Positions 46,457-52,127 of a stretch of 64,000 bases of DNA are shown here, piece after piece. Position numbers and translations under genes: made by a program. Origin of the DNA: Ignavibacteriota bacterium (GTDB lineage Bacteria > Bacteroidota > Ignavibacteria > Tepidaquicellales > Tepidaquicellaceae). Under the pieces are notes generated by a model. It saw nothing but the letters and a program-made list of their open reading frames with translations, searched no databases and was not told the origin of the DNA. The stretch is taken from assembly GCA_026390735.1 (NCBI GenBank), contig JAPLFJ010000026.1, positions 62,001 through 126,000 of the forward strand, in the 5' to 3' direction. Each line of letters opens with the position of its first letter. Position 1 is the stretch's first letter.

Positions 46457-48232
46457 ATGACTACGAACAAAAAACTCATTGCCTGGGTTGATGAAATGGC
46501 AAAACTCTGTAAACCTGACAGTATTCACTGGTGCGACGGCTCCGAAGAAGAAAATCAGATGCTTATTAAAGGGTACGTTGACAGCGGTGTCTTTACACCT
46601 ATCCCAAAACGTCCTAACTCGTACTGGGTTGTTTCTGACCCGAAAGACGTTGCACGTGTTGAAGATAAAACATTCATCTGTTCTAAAAATAAAGTTGATG
46701 CGGGTCCTACAAACAACTGGATGGCTCCCGACGAAATGAAAACCCTTATGTCAGGTCTCTACGACGGTTGTATGGTCGGACGCACAATGTATGTCATTCC
46801 TTTCTCGATGGGTCCACTCGGTTCAAAGATTGCCCACATAGGCGTTGAACTTACAGATTCACCGTATGTAGTTATCAATATGCGCATTATGACACGTATG
46901 GGAAAAGCAGTGCTTGATGTACTCGGCGAAGGCGAATTTGTCCCTTGCCTGCACTCAATCGGCTATCCTTTACCAGACGGCAAAAAAGACGTTGCCTGGC
47001 CTTGCAACGACACAAAATATATTTCGCATTTCCCTGAAGAAAGAATGATATGGTCATTCGGTTCAGGATACGGCGGCAACGCATTACTCGGAAAAAAATG
47101 TTTCGCACTCCGCATAGCATCAGTCCTCGCACGCGATGAAGGCTGGCTTGCAGAGCATATGTTAATACTCGGTTTAACTCCACCAAACGGAGAGAAGAAG
47201 TACATCGCAGCAGCGTTCCCGTCTGCCTGCGGAAAAACAAACCTCGCAATGCTCACACCTTCCATCCCGGGATGGAAAGTTGAAACTGTCGGAGACGACA
47301 TTGCCTGGATGAAATTCGGCGAAGACGGACGCCTTTACGCAATCAATCCTGAATACGGATTCTTCGGCGTGGCTCCGGGAACTTCGATGAAGACAAACGC
47401 AAACGCAATGCTTTCCTGCGAGTCGAACTCCATCTTCACAAACGTAGCCTTCACAGACGACGGCGATATATGGTGGGAAGGAATGACAGACGAAAAGCCT
47501 GCACACTTAATAGACTGGAATAAAAACGACTGGACACCTGCATCGGGCAAACCATCGTCGCATCCAAACTCACGTTTCACGGCACCTGCAAAACAGTGTC
47601 CTGTAATCGATGCAGCGTGGGAAGACCCGAAAGGCGTGCCTATCAGCGCATTCTTCTTCGGCGGACGCAGAGAAAGTTTTGTACCGCTAATCAACGAAGC
47701 ATACGACTGGAATCACGGAGTTTATATGGGCTCAGCCTGTGCCTCCGAAACCACAGCCGCAGCAGCGGGAGCAGTCGGCACACTCCGCCACGACCCGTTT
47801 GCAATGTTACCGTTCTGCGGATACAACATGGGCGACTACTTCAAACACTGGATAAACATCGGAACAAAATCATCAGCGGATAAACTGCCGAAAATATTCT
47901 TCGTAAACTGGTTCCGCAAAAACGAAGCAGGCAAGTTCATCTGGCCGGGATACGGCGACAACATACGTGCACTCAAATGGGCAATCGAAAGAGTAAACGG
48001 CACAGGAAAGTATATTGATACACCAATCGGCAGACTTCCTGCAGAAGGTGCAATCGATATGGACGGACTCGACATCTCTGCAGAAGACTTCAAGAAACTC
48101 TTCACCATCAACAAAGAAACCGGTCTTGCAGAAGTAGCCGAAATGCGCGAATACTATAAGAAGTTCGGTGACAGACTACCAAAAGAACTCACCATCGAAC
48201 TCGACAAGATAGAAGAAAGATTAAAGAAGTAA
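46457..48232 (+). CDS. pckG: Phosphoenolpyruvate carboxykinase, GTP-dependent
   Basis: Makes PEP from oxaloacetate and GTP, linking the citric acid cycle to gluconeogenesis. The 591-aa enzyme shows the GTP-type P-loop FPSACGKTN (254-262) with the reactive Cys258, plus [16 protein letters not shown] and [15 protein letters not shown]. Codon use is rich in C-ending codons (AAC, CTC, GGC), unlike its neighbours, as expected for a highly expressed gene. Leader contains the palindromic repeats. Confidence 0.96.
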
Positions 48233-48243
48233 ATTAAATCATA

Positions 48244-48276
48244 AAGCCCGGGGCAAACAACCTCGGGCTTTTTTGT
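48244..48276 (+). terminator. Rho-independent terminator after pckG
   Basis: Stem AAGCCCGGGG (about 48245-48254) with CCTCGGGCTT (one G-T wobble), loop of about seven bases, then TTTTTTG. Confidence 0.92.
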
Positions 48277-48353
48277 ATATGCAATAATCTCTATTTCACC
48301 ATTCCGTAATAACATATAAATAATCTTCCAATAATTGAAAATCCTTTTTAAAA

Positions 48354-48388
48354 ATGCTACTTATAGAATGTAGATTTATAAGTAGCAT
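48354..48388 (+). promoter_or_regulatory. Palindromic operator (C-box-like) of the R-M controller
   Basis: A perfect inverted repeat with 12-bp arms, ATGCTACTTATA (48354-48365) and TATAAGTAGCAT (48377-48388), 11 bp spacer. It ends 25 bp before the controller ATG. The ACTTATAG core resembles the operators of known restriction-modification controller proteins (GACTTATAGTC-like boxes, from memory), so the regulator likely controls its own operon. Confidence 0.7.
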
Positions 48389-48413
48389 CTTAATAATTTA
48401 CTTAAAAAACCGT

Positions 48414-48623
48414 ATGGATATTCTTAAAAAACTTGGCAGTAATATACGAGAACAAAGAACAAAATTAGATCTTTCACAAGAAATGCTTGCAAATAATGCA
48501 GAAATACATAGAACATATTTAGGGGCAGTAGAAAGAGGAGAAAAAAATGTGTCATTTAAAAATCTGTATAAAATTGCAAAAGCTCTTAAAGTTTCCGTTA
48601 GCGATTTAACTAAACTAATATAG
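48414..48623 (+). CDS. XRE-family controller protein of the R-M system
   Basis: A 69-aa helix-turn-helix protein: LGSNIREQRTKLDLSQEMLANNAEIHRTYLG, VERGEKNVSFKNLYKIAKAL. It matches the size and fold of C proteins that time restriction enzyme expression after entry into a new host. The start at 48414 is chosen because the upstream open frame runs through the operator palindrome. It precedes the methyltransferase by 15 bp on the same strand. Confidence 0.85.
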   Translation: MDILKKLGSNIREQRTKLDLSQEMLANNAEIHRTYLGAVERGEKNVSFKNLYKIAKALKVSVSDLTKLI

Positions 48624-48638
48624 TACACGAAGTAAATT

Positions 48639-49769
48639 ATGCAAACTAAAAAGGAAAAGATAAATTATATCGCTGCTACACTAAATTATGAAGTTAATGA
48701 ACCACAACTTGAATTAATTTACACTAAACTTTATAATAAGAAAGAAGCTGAAAAGAAATTTAGATTTATAGATTTATTTGCAGGTATAGGAGGTATACGT
48801 TTTCCTTTTGAAAAACTTGGCGGGGAATGTGTATTTACTTCTGAATGGGATGTGAATTGCCAAAAGACGTATTTTGCAAATTATGGAGAAATTCCAAATG
48901 GAGATATAAATTCTATTGAAGTTAATAGTATCCCAAATCACGATATTTTATTAGCTGGTTTTCCCTGTCAGGCATTTAGTGTTGCAGGTTATAGAAAAGG
49001 GTTTGATGATACTAGAGGGACTTTGTTCTTTAATATTGCTGAGATATTGAAAGAACATAGACCAATCGGCTTTTTATTAGAAAATGTAAAAGGATTAGTC
49101 GGTCACAATCACGGTAATACATTTGCAAGAATTAAAGAAGTATTGGAAAAGGAATTAGAATATAAAATATATACTAAAGTTCTTAATTCAATGACTCATG
49201 CCAATATCCCACAGAATAGGGAAAGAATTATTATTATAGGTGTAAGAAAGGATATAAATTCTTTAGGTGAAGAACATAACATTCACCATGAGTTTCCACC
49301 TGAGGAAATTAAATTAACCAAAACAATACATGACTTAATTGAAAAAGACAAGAAGGATGAAAAATATTATTACAATAAGAATCATAAGTATTATGAAGAA
49401 TTGAACAAAAGCCTTAAATCTAAAGACACTATTTATCAATGGCGAAGACATTATGTCAGAGAAAACAAAAACAATGTTTGCCCGACTCTTACTGCAAATA
49501 TGGGAACAGGTGGTCATAATGTACCAATAATAAGAGATAGTTTTGGCATAAGAAAACTAACTCCGAAAGAATGTGCAAGATTTCAGGGTTTCCCAGAAAA
49601 TTTCATATTGCCAAATAATTTGGCTGATAGTAAGTTGTACTATCAAATCGGTAATTCGGTTACAGTACCATTAATTAAAAGAGTAGCAGATAATTTTATT
49701 AATTATTTAATTAAACTTGATGCATTTTCTAGAGAATCAAACAACTGGAAGCAGAGAAAAGTATTGTAA
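48639..49769 (+). CDS. C5-cytosine DNA methyltransferase
   Basis: A 376-aa modification enzyme. Motif I is DLFAGIGG (45-52), motif IV GFPCQAFS with catalytic Cys110, motif VI LLENVKGL, motif VIII QNRERI and motif X QIGNSVTVPLI. The target-recognition region is between about residues 225 and 315 and cannot be read for specificity. An N-terminal 40-residue extension (helical) precedes motif I. The gene is AT-rich, as is the whole island. It overlaps the restriction gene by about 50 bp. Confidence 0.95.
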   Translation: MQTKKEKINYIAATLNYEVNEPQLELIYTKLYNKKEAEKKFRFIDLFAGIGGIRFPFEKLGGECVFTSEWDVNCQKTYFANYGEIPNGDINSIEVNSIPNHDILLAGFPCQAFSVAGYRKGFDDTRGTLFFNIAEILKEHRPIGFLLENVKGLVGHNHGNTFARIKEVLEKELEYKIYTKVLNSMTHANIPQNRERIIIIGVRKDINSLGEEHNIHHEFPPEEIKLTKTIHDLIEKDKKDEKYYYNKNHKYYEELNKSLKSKDTIYQWRRHYVRENKNNVCPTLTANMGTGGHNVPIIRDSFGIRKLTPKECARFQGFPENFILPNNLADSKLYYQIGNSVTVPLIKRVADNFINYLIKLDAFSRESNNWKQRKVL

Positions 49770-50868
49770 TTATTTAAAAGCTGTATCTTCTTTGTCTAAT
49801 TTATTTAGTGATTCGAGTGTACCTTATATTAATTATAGGGTAGCTGAAAACTTATTCTGTAAAGCCTTCGAAGCTGACAATTTGTCCCGTTCTGATATTT
49901 CATATGATGCAAGGAAAGATAAAATTGGAATTGGTATCAAAACATTTATAAATCAAAAAATATCGAAGTTTGAAAAAGTCGCTGAGTTCAATGTATTAAG
50001 TAAGAAAATTAAAACACTTGAAGGAATTAGTTTAGCTGAAAAACTTGCAGACTTCAGAAATGAAAGAATAGATTTTGCAAATCGCACTTATGAAATTGAA
50101 AAAGGTCTTTATCATTGCATTACTCGAAGCGATAAAAAGTTAATTATTTTTGAAACGGAATATAAAACAATCGATAAGGATTCACTAAAAATAGTTAAAT
50201 CAACAGATGCCTCCCTGCATTTTAAGGACAGATTTAATAATTATCTTTACAACCATTCAAAAAGTACATTATTCCAGAAGTTTGAGAAACCTGAAAATGC
50301 TTTAGAGTTAAAAGTTAATATTATTGATGACCCATTTGATTTAATCCTAAAACTTTTGAATTTTAAAGGATTATCATTTAATAGTGAAATTGGAACAGCA
50401 GGTATAGATTATGTGATACTCCCGCTATATTCAACTGCTTTAAGTAATGAAAAGCAAAAAGTGGTTCCTGAAAAAAGCGGTTTAAATCAGTGGAACGCAG
50501 GCGGCAGGGCAAGAAAGCCCGGAGAATTATATATTCCTGTTCCATCAGCTATTCATAAGAAATATCCTAAGTTCTTCCCAACAAGAGATGTTGTATTTAC
50601 ATTGAAGACACCTGATAATGAAGTACTGAATGCAAAATTGTGCCAGGAAAATTCCAAGGCGTTAATGACTAATCCAAACGATGCCTTAGAGAAATGGATG
50701 CTAAGAAAAGTATTGGAGGTTAAAACGAATAAAATTCTTACTTATGATAGACTATTGGAAGTTGGAGTTGACAGCGTAATAATCACTAAAATTAAATCTG
50801 GTGAATATAAAATTGATTTTGCAGCGATTGATTCATACGATTCATTCTCGGAAAAGTATTTAACTTAA
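49720..50868 (+). CDS. Probable type II restriction endonuclease with B3-like C-terminus
   Basis: A 382-aa protein encoded next to the methyltransferase. The C-terminal third (EKSGLNQWNAGGRARKPGE, PVPSAIHKKYPKFFP, CQENSKALMTNPNDALEKW) resembles the B3-type DNA-recognition domain of NgoFVII-like enzymes (my recollection). The N-terminal half has Asp63 and GIGIKTF (70-76) then VAEFN, which could be a PD-(D/E)xK-type core, but I cannot fix the catalytic residues. An ATG at 49720 is used; TTG at 49717 precedes it. Confidence 0.75.
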   Translation: MHFLENQTTGSREKYCNYLKAVSSLSNLFSDSSVPYINYRVAENLFCKAFEADNLSRSDISYDARKDKIGIGIKTFINQKISKFEKVAEFNVLSKKIKTLEGISLAEKLADFRNERIDFANRTYEIEKGLYHCITRSDKKLIIFETEYKTIDKDSLKIVKSTDASLHFKDRFNNYLYNHSKSTLFQKFEKPENALELKVNIIDDPFDLILKLLNFKGLSFNSEIGTAGIDYVILPLYSTALSNEKQKVVPEKSGLNQWNAGGRARKPGELYIPVPSAIHKKYPKFFPTRDVVFTLKTPDNEVLNAKLCQENSKALMTNPNDALEKWMLRKVLEVKTNKILTYDRLLEVGVDSVIITKIKSGEYKIDFAAIDSYDSFSEKYLT

Positions 50869-50876
50869 ATTTGGCA

Positions 50877-51281
50877 ATGGATAATCTTACTCCTGATCAG
50901 CGCAAGAAAAACATGAGTAATATTAAATCTAAAGATACTCTTCCCGAAAGATTAGTTGAAGCATACCTTAATCGAAAGAAAATCTACGTTAGCAGAAAAT
51001 ACAATAATATTGTTGGTAAACCTGATTTTATATTTAGACGGAAAAAAGTATTACTTTTTGTCGATTCGGACTTTTGGCATGGACACTTAAAAAGATGTGT
51101 TATGCCTAAATCAAATCAAGAGTATTGGAATAAAAAGATATTAAGAAATAGAGAACGTGATAAAATTGTTAACAAACAACTTCGAAAAGAAGGATGGACA
51201 GTGATAAGAGTTTGGGAATACGATATTAAAAAGAACGTTGAACAGTCTTTAAGAAAAGTAATTAAAGCAATAGATAAATAG
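50877..51281 (+). CDS. vsr: Very short patch repair endonuclease Vsr
   Basis: A 134-aa Vsr nuclease: it starts with LTPDQRKKNMSNIKSKDTLPE, then RKYNNIVGKPDFIFRRKKVLLFVDSDFWHGH and a basic RERDKIVNKQLRKEGW and ending VIRVWEYDI. Vsr nicks T:G mismatches made when 5-methylcytosine deaminates, and is a regular companion of C5 methyltransferases. In the usual DGCFWHGC motif the Gly-Cys and the last Cys are replaced here (DSDFWHGH). TTG at 50871 is an alternative start. Confidence 0.9.
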   Translation: MDNLTPDQRKKNMSNIKSKDTLPERLVEAYLNRKKIYVSRKYNNIVGKPDFIFRRKKVLLFVDSDFWHGHLKRCVMPKSNQEYWNKKILRNRERDKIVNKQLRKEGWTVIRVWEYDIKKNVEQSLRKVIKAIDK

Positions 51282-51293
51282 CTAAGAAATGCT

Positions 51294-52040
51294 TTGTCAA
51301 AACTTAATCTAAAATATTCTCCATCTAATACCATCGTCTGCTGGCTGAAGCAGAAGAACGACTTATCAATTCTGCTGAATGAGGGATGGTACAGAATCCC
51401 CGTGAAAACTAATCTTGAAAATCTGCATAAGGTGAAATATCTGGCGTTCTATCAGTCGTACGCATTCGGCAAAGCTGCTTGCATCATTAAACATTATGGG
51501 ACGATTGAGAAAATTGATACAGTTAAACGCACAGAATTATTCCCGAAAGAAAAACTAAATGAGAAAAGTGACGATGAGTACTATAAGATTAAGATGAAGG
51601 ATATGAACATTCTCGAAACTCCAATCCCAAGCAAACGGCACAGAAGAATCATTTTCATAAATACTACTCTGGAAAAACTACTATCGGCAACGGAAGTAAA
51701 CGACTTGTACAATGAAAGTCCGCTTGAAGATGTTCTATGGAACGGTATGAAGCAAAACAACATTGTAGCCGAAAGACAATACTTCCTACGCGGCAGTAAT
51801 AATATGTACTGCCTCGACTTTGCCGCTTTCTGCAAAAAAGGAAACCTCAACATCGAATGCGACGGCGATGCTTACCACATCGGAAAGGAAAAAGCTGTAA
51901 AAGACAATCGCCGCGACAACTATCTGACTAAGAAGGGCTGGAGCATTCTCCGCTATTCTACTACACAATTGCACGACACTGACGAATGTATAGAAGAAAT
52001 TCGCGAATCCATTTCTCAAAAGGGCGGGATTGAAAAATAA
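51294..52040 (+). CDS. DUF559/Vsr-like nuclease-domain protein
   Basis: A 248-aa protein. The C-terminal 110 residues have the DUF559 pattern of PD-(D/E)xK nucleases: NNIVAERQYFLRG, YCLDFAAFCKKGNLNIECDGDAYH (Asp, then Glu-x-Asp), KDNRRDNYLTKKGWSILRYS. The N-terminal 130 residues (WYRIPVKTNL, LAFYQSYAFGKAACII) are a separate domain I do not recognise. It starts with TTG 12 bp after vsr, on the same strand, so it belongs to the R-M island. It may be a second repair or restriction nuclease. Confidence 0.75.
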   Translation: MSKLNLKYSPSNTIVCWLKQKNDLSILLNEGWYRIPVKTNLENLHKVKYLAFYQSYAFGKAACIIKHYGTIEKIDTVKRTELFPKEKLNEKSDDEYYKIKMKDMNILETPIPSKRHRRIIFINTTLEKLLSATEVNDLYNESPLEDVLWNGMKQNNIVAERQYFLRGSNNMYCLDFAAFCKKGNLNIECDGDAYHIGKEKAVKDNRRDNYLTKKGWSILRYSTTQLHDTDECIEEIRESISQKGGIEK

Positions 52041-52127
52041 ATTCTAATTCCATTTGAAAAAAACACCCTCCATAGTTTTTCTTTAATATAATCCGAACAA
52101 ATCATTCTTTTTTACCGTAGTATACTT

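Follow-up and report, generated by a model that had tools for sequence, protein, structure and literature searches.

Closest described systems

In restriction-modification (R-M) systems, the methyltransferase is usually made first, and the restriction endonuclease is delayed. In the systems of C.Esp1396I, C.AhdI, and C.BclI, a small XRE-family controller gene is directly preceded by a 35-bp operator, and the methyltransferase gene of Esp1396I has an operator of its own (OM). Within C.Esp1396I, R35, T36, and R46 contact bases, and Y37 has a role in DNA bending (PMC4041747). The restriction enzymes NgoFVII, NgoAVII, and CglI have a C-terminal B3-like DNA-binding domain; NgoAVII and CglI also have a PLD (HxK) nuclease at the N terminus and work with a helicase-like partner. 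In Escherichia coli, Vsr is encoded in tandem with the C5 methyltransferase Dcm and acts in very-short-patch repair. Among studied DUF559 proteins, the closest that was found is Caulobacter VsrA (CCNA_02930), which has a functional and genetic tie to a C5 methyltransferase, although the two genes are unlinked (PMC12907096).

Organization of the locus

The window analyzed here is a 64,000-nucleotide stretch of DNA from an Ignavibacteriota bacterium. The preliminary description had placed in it a palindromic operator, an XRE controller, a C5 methyltransferase, a B3-like restriction enzyme, Vsr, and a DUF559-type nuclease, in that order on one strand, and all six elements were found. Together with the upstream flank, the features are as follows.

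46457..48232, plus strand: pckA (PEPCK), conserved left flank of a variable slot
48243..48271, plus strand: intrinsic terminator of pckA, 11-pair stem with a T tail, separating pckA from the cassette
48354..48388, plus strand: predicted operator, perfect 12-bp arms around an 11-nt spacer, TATA-N11-TATA
48414..48623, plus strand: C, XRE-family controller, 69 aa (Pfam, PADLOC, and PDB matches)
48639..49769, plus strand: M, C5-cytosine DNA methyltransferase, 376 aa (Pfam, PADLOC)
49720..50868, plus strand: R, Type II restriction endonuclease, 382 aa (PADLOC, Pfam, structural model)
50877..51281, plus strand: V, Vsr mismatch endonuclease, 134 aa (NCBIfam, Pfam, E. coli Vsr)
51294..52040, plus strand: DUF559 nuclease, 248 aa, neighbor outside the R-M cassette (Pfam, GC3, linkage)

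Positions 48354 to 51281 very probably represent a Type II R-M cassette that was acquired horizontally and lies in a variable slot just 3' of pckA, with the DUF559 gene as an independent neighbor. The spacing is as tight as had been described, with 15 bp between C and M, a 50-bp overlap of M and R, 8 bp between R and V, and 12 bp between V and the DUF559 gene. The AT richness that had been ascribed to the whole locus holds for C, M, R, and V (GC, 0.29 to 0.31; GC3, 0.13 to 0.24) but not for the DUF559 gene (GC, 0.40; GC3, 0.47), and the flanking host genes have GC3 values of 0.37 to 0.51. Codon composition shifts exactly at the boundary between V and the DUF559 gene, and the contrast in GC3 indicates that the foreign segment ends at vsr. 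A terminator was looked for between V and the DUF559 start and none was found, which, together with the 12-bp gap, means that the two genes may be cotranscribed.

Controller and operator

The operator consists of the palindrome ATGCTACTTATA-N11-TATAAGTAGCAT, which forms two tandem C-boxes and is a predicted binding site for two C-protein dimers. An arm length of 12 bp was matched in only 1 of 1,000 dinucleotide shuffles of the upstream stretch of 134 bp. The palindrome has the same length as the combined OL and OR sites of C.Esp1396I, and the two sequences coincide at both TATA cores; the 35-bp reference was assembled from two published oligonucleotides (PMC3758141), with the stretch between them filled in. 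At 22/35, the identity to this reference is the highest in the window; alone, it is weak evidence, because 21/35 is reached four times elsewhere in the window by chance. The operator assignment from sequence is therefore based on position, register, and palindrome rather than on raw identity to Esp1396I.

Position 48354, where the locus had been said to begin, is indeed the first base of the palindrome, but the ATG at this position is spurious as a start of C. The likeliest start of C, at 48414, gives a 69-aa protein and places the operator upstream of C rather than within it. C matches Pfam HTH_3 (2.4e-15) and PADLOC Control_protein (7e-21), and its closest solved proteins are C.BclI (2e-12) and C.AhdI (3e-11), followed by C.Esp1396I (4e-6). 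In an alignment made by eye, C keeps the R-T-Y triplet, and the position of R46 is occupied by K. At another locus of the same R family, L073, a different inverted repeat lies upstream of the C gene.

Methyltransferase and Vsr

M is a typical C5 enzyme that matches Pfam PF00145 (1.4e-92) and PADLOC MTase_II (2.6e-125), and its nearest solved structure is M.HhaI (8e-62). V passes the curated cutoffs for Vsr in both TIGR00632 (114 bits versus 97.85; 4e-33) and PF03852 (65.5 bits versus 27), and it matches E. coli Vsr at 4e-14. H64 of E. coli Vsr is replaced by D in V, as has been reported for V.NgoAXIII and V.Nme18VIP.

Restriction endonuclease

R matches PADLOC REase_II PDLC03479 over its full length (5e-130), and its C terminus matches the B3-like domain RE_NgoFVII_C of Pfam (PF20731; 8e-14). 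In a model of R built with the window and related-locus sequences as the alignment (mean pLDDT, 70), the B3 part resembles the B3 DNA-binding domain of R.NgoAVII (4rd5; Z score, 11.2), and the N-terminal part shows middling similarity to restriction enzymes (3ndh, Z score of 8.0; HinP1I, 6.7; EcoRV, 6.1). E44, D64, and K75 are invariant in the aligned family, and G, rather than D or E, stands two residues before K75. The PLD nuclease motif HxK(x4)D was sought in the N-terminal domain and was absent from 8 of 8 and 7 of 7 aligned family members. On the basis of these alignments and the model, R is better read as a putative PD-(D/E)XK-like N-terminal domain joined to a C-terminal NgoAVII-type B3 domain. 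Assignment of R as an NgoFVII-type PLD restriction enzyme is probably wrong, since the B3 domain is present but HxK(x4)D is missing from every aligned member.

In public annotation (PGAP), the plasmid relatives of R at L086 to L089 are named "restriction endonuclease PLD domain-containing protein" or "NgoFVII family." In view of the missing HxK and the invariant E44, D64, and K75, the PLD names probably reflect the B3 part only.

Related R-M loci

Sixteen further loci with R relatives were gathered from phylum relatives, genome contigs, viral contigs, and plasmids. M adjoins R in 15 of them, and Vsr is present at five (L075, L081, L082, L086, and L089). C is found at three, namely, L073 and L081 by blastp and L086 by record annotation, as a helix-turn-helix gene immediately before R, and no member of the two-domain DUF559 family occurs at any of the 16. 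The parts of the cassette thus recur at related R loci with variable accessories, so that operator-C-M-R-V is a known kind of system. This recurrence, the family matches, and the operator bear out the earlier reading, in which a controller regulates a C5 R-M system that has a B3-type restriction enzyme and linked Vsr, and the sequence supports a predicted Type II cassette of known kind for C-M-R-V.

Accessory genes at these loci are diverse. In the Caldicellulosiruptor plasmid R-M locus (L088:7153-7824), a base-excision repair protein is encoded beside M, where other versions have Vsr. At L073:7716-12066 and L075:3047-7339, two large genes come after the R-M relative (671 and 776 aa and 657 and 771 aa, respectively), which by eye resemble the MORC/paraMORC ATPases of R-M loci (PMC2292703).

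Variable slot downstream of pckA

pckA is present in 27 of the 29 family genomes. The order QueC-AI2E-pckA is kept in relatives, but what comes 3' of pckA is different in each of the ten genomes that were compared. The slot, which spans 48233 to 52127 in the window and is also represented in L066, L067, L068, L034, L040, and L070, often holds defense-type genes. In genome G001 (L066:66-1741), it contains a dCTP-deaminase-like gene, a cytidine deaminase gene, and a Vsr gene whose product is 44% identical to the window Vsr, and the contig ends there. The G002 slot contains a C5 methyltransferase gene with HD-CE, ORC-CDC6-like, and CARF6-like genes, and the G004 slot contains Mrr, PRTase-CE, and NADAR genes followed by DUF559. 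A variable slot at this position explains why the cassette and the DUF559 gene are adjacent.

The DUF559 family

The Pfam DUF559 match covers residues 142 to 240 of the 248-aa protein (3e-10), and the nuclease motif is intact. The preliminary description had assigned this protein to the broad fold of Vsr, and the profiles agree: V itself reaches Pfam DUF559 at 21.3 bits (cutoff, 20.6), and a search with a DUF559 nuclease-domain profile recovers Vsr proteins, so that the nuclease part is Vsr-like. The N-terminal domain of approximately 135 aa gave no convincing Pfam match in a search with 14 members, and this part holds most residues that are invariant in the family. A single-sequence structure prediction of the protein had a pLDDT of 36, which is too low for use.

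Relatives encoding the same two-domain protein, or the N-terminal domain with remnants, were read with their flanks at 36 loci; the linkage survey as a whole covered one phylum together with viral, plasmid, and two genome-contig matches. In the flanking sequence read, homologs of C, M, R, or V were near the DUF559 homolog at none of the 36 loci; the 5' flank is 1.4 kb or longer at 34 of them, and several contigs are short. No relatives of the DUF559 protein were found in viral contigs, and plasmid matches were to the DUF559 part only, covering at most half of the query. The gene occurs without the cassette in the same slot after pckA in G004 and G018 and elsewhere in other genomes. Identity among the copies does not parallel host distance, with 92% for pckA and 63% for DUF559 in G004 and 78% and 68%, respectively, in G028.

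In the copies from one family (L041:3150-4004, L042:8838-9635, L043:8962-9708, L044:8984-9829, and L045:8717-9766), the nuclease motif (ExDG...H) is lost and the N-terminal domain is kept. By eye, at least those at L042, L043, and L045 lie downstream of anti-sigma-type and lipoprotein-like genes. The motif-less copies suggest a domesticated, nonnuclease role. In G018 (L040:6157-9010), the DUF559 gene is interrupted and reads as an N-terminal part, a 368-aa gene, a 301-aa gene that by eye looks like an adenine methyltransferase gene, and a second short N-terminal fragment.

Alternative explanations

The preliminary description had taken the DUF559 nuclease for an additional repair or restriction component and had proposed a survey of its linkage to C5 R-M systems. 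The survey, within one phylum plus viral, plasmid, and two genome-contig matches, places the gene mostly outside R-M loci (0/36), and the suggestion was abandoned on this count, on the 0/16 among R loci, and on the composition break between Vsr and DUF559; membership of the gene in the cassette is rejected on the same grounds. If the protein were nevertheless a functional fifth component, it would serve as a second repair nickase or a backup nuclease coexpressed with Vsr. Such a role would fit the shared strand, the 12-bp gap with no terminator found in it, the intact motif and Vsr-like fold, and the genetic interaction of Caulobacter VsrA with a C5 methyltransferase (PMC12907096), but it is very improbable given the two linkage counts, the host-like GC3 of 0.47 as opposed to 0.13 to 0.24 in C, M, R, and V, and the conservation of DUF559 homologs in genomes with no such R-M system nearby. 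A somewhat better, though still unlikely, reading is that the protein is a general host Vsr-like repair enzyme that does not belong to the cassette and acts on mismatches from any methyltransferase, including M. VsrA, a DUF559-domain protein unlinked from its own methyltransferase (PMC12907096), is a precedent for this, and the window family is likewise solitary and scattered, but the N-terminal domain of approximately 135 aa with no Pfam match is not a feature of Vsr, and the lineage that has lost the nuclease motif and kept this domain suggests that the core function may be something other than nuclease activity. Since VsrA is tied to an unlinked methyltransferase, a functional link may exist even where gene linkage is missing. 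Speculatively, and with little confidence, the family might be an undescribed group of two-domain solitary repair or modification-sensing nucleases, in which the N-terminal domain is under the strongest selection and which is here controlled by the incoming R-M operon.

A different doubt concerns the cassette itself, which could be a degenerate or silent remnant that lacks active restriction. R-M genes often decay, and the cassette is GC-poor, recently acquired DNA, but the frames of C, M, R, and V are all intact and of full length compared with their families, and the operator is intact, which makes a remnant least likely of all. An intact, horizontally acquired cassette beside an independent DUF559 gene is the preferred reading.

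Proposed working

The gene identities, operator geometry, composition break, and absent linkage are seen in the sequence itself, and all the biochemical activities that follow are inferred. On entry of the preferred cassette into a cell, basal transcription would yield C and M. C dimers may then occupy both tandem C-boxes and activate the operon before repressing it, which would make R late and limited. M is predicted to methylate cytosine at C5 in its own site, and R would read the same site via its C-terminal B3 domain and use its N-terminal PD-(D/E)XK-like domain to cut DNA that is unmethylated. V would nick at T:G mismatches that arise in the M site by deamination of 5mC. Since C precedes both M and R, a delay with M first would need an additional promoter. 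The DUF559 gene would be an independent, mostly solitary chromosomal nuclease gene that was already in the slot or reached it separately.

Tight spacing alone can thus feign a five-gene "system" when a defense cassette comes to lie before an unrelated nuclease of similar fold. By-products of the analysis are a variable slot after pckA that often holds defense genes and an R family whose PLD name is probably wrong for the catalytic domain.

Comparison with known systems

The locus resembles the C.Esp1396I, C.AhdI, and C.BclI systems in its small XRE controller with a 35-bp operator directly upstream, in the two TATA-centered C-boxes in the same register, and in the R-T-Y recognition residues. 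It differs from them in the flanking bases of the C-boxes, which deviate from the GAC/GTC consensus, and from Esp1396I, with its separate OM, in that C, M, and R all point the same way, in that order. V belongs to the same Vsr family as that of E. coli and likewise stands in tandem with a C5 methyltransferase gene, but it is part of a full R-M cassette, unlike the Dcm-Vsr pair. R shares the C-terminal B3-like domain with NgoFVII, NgoAVII, and CglI, but unlike NgoAVII and CglI it has no helicase gene in its cassette, no HxK, and a predicted restriction enzyme-like N-terminal fold. The sites of these B3 relatives, GCCGC for NgoAVII and CglI and GCSGC for NgoFVII, are a mere lead to the target site of M and R. 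The window DUF559 protein and Caulobacter VsrA, likened here by domain rather than by direct sequence comparison, share the DUF559 nuclease domain, and in both cases the gene lacks linkage to a methyltransferase gene; the window protein differs in its additional N-terminal domain of approximately 135 aa.
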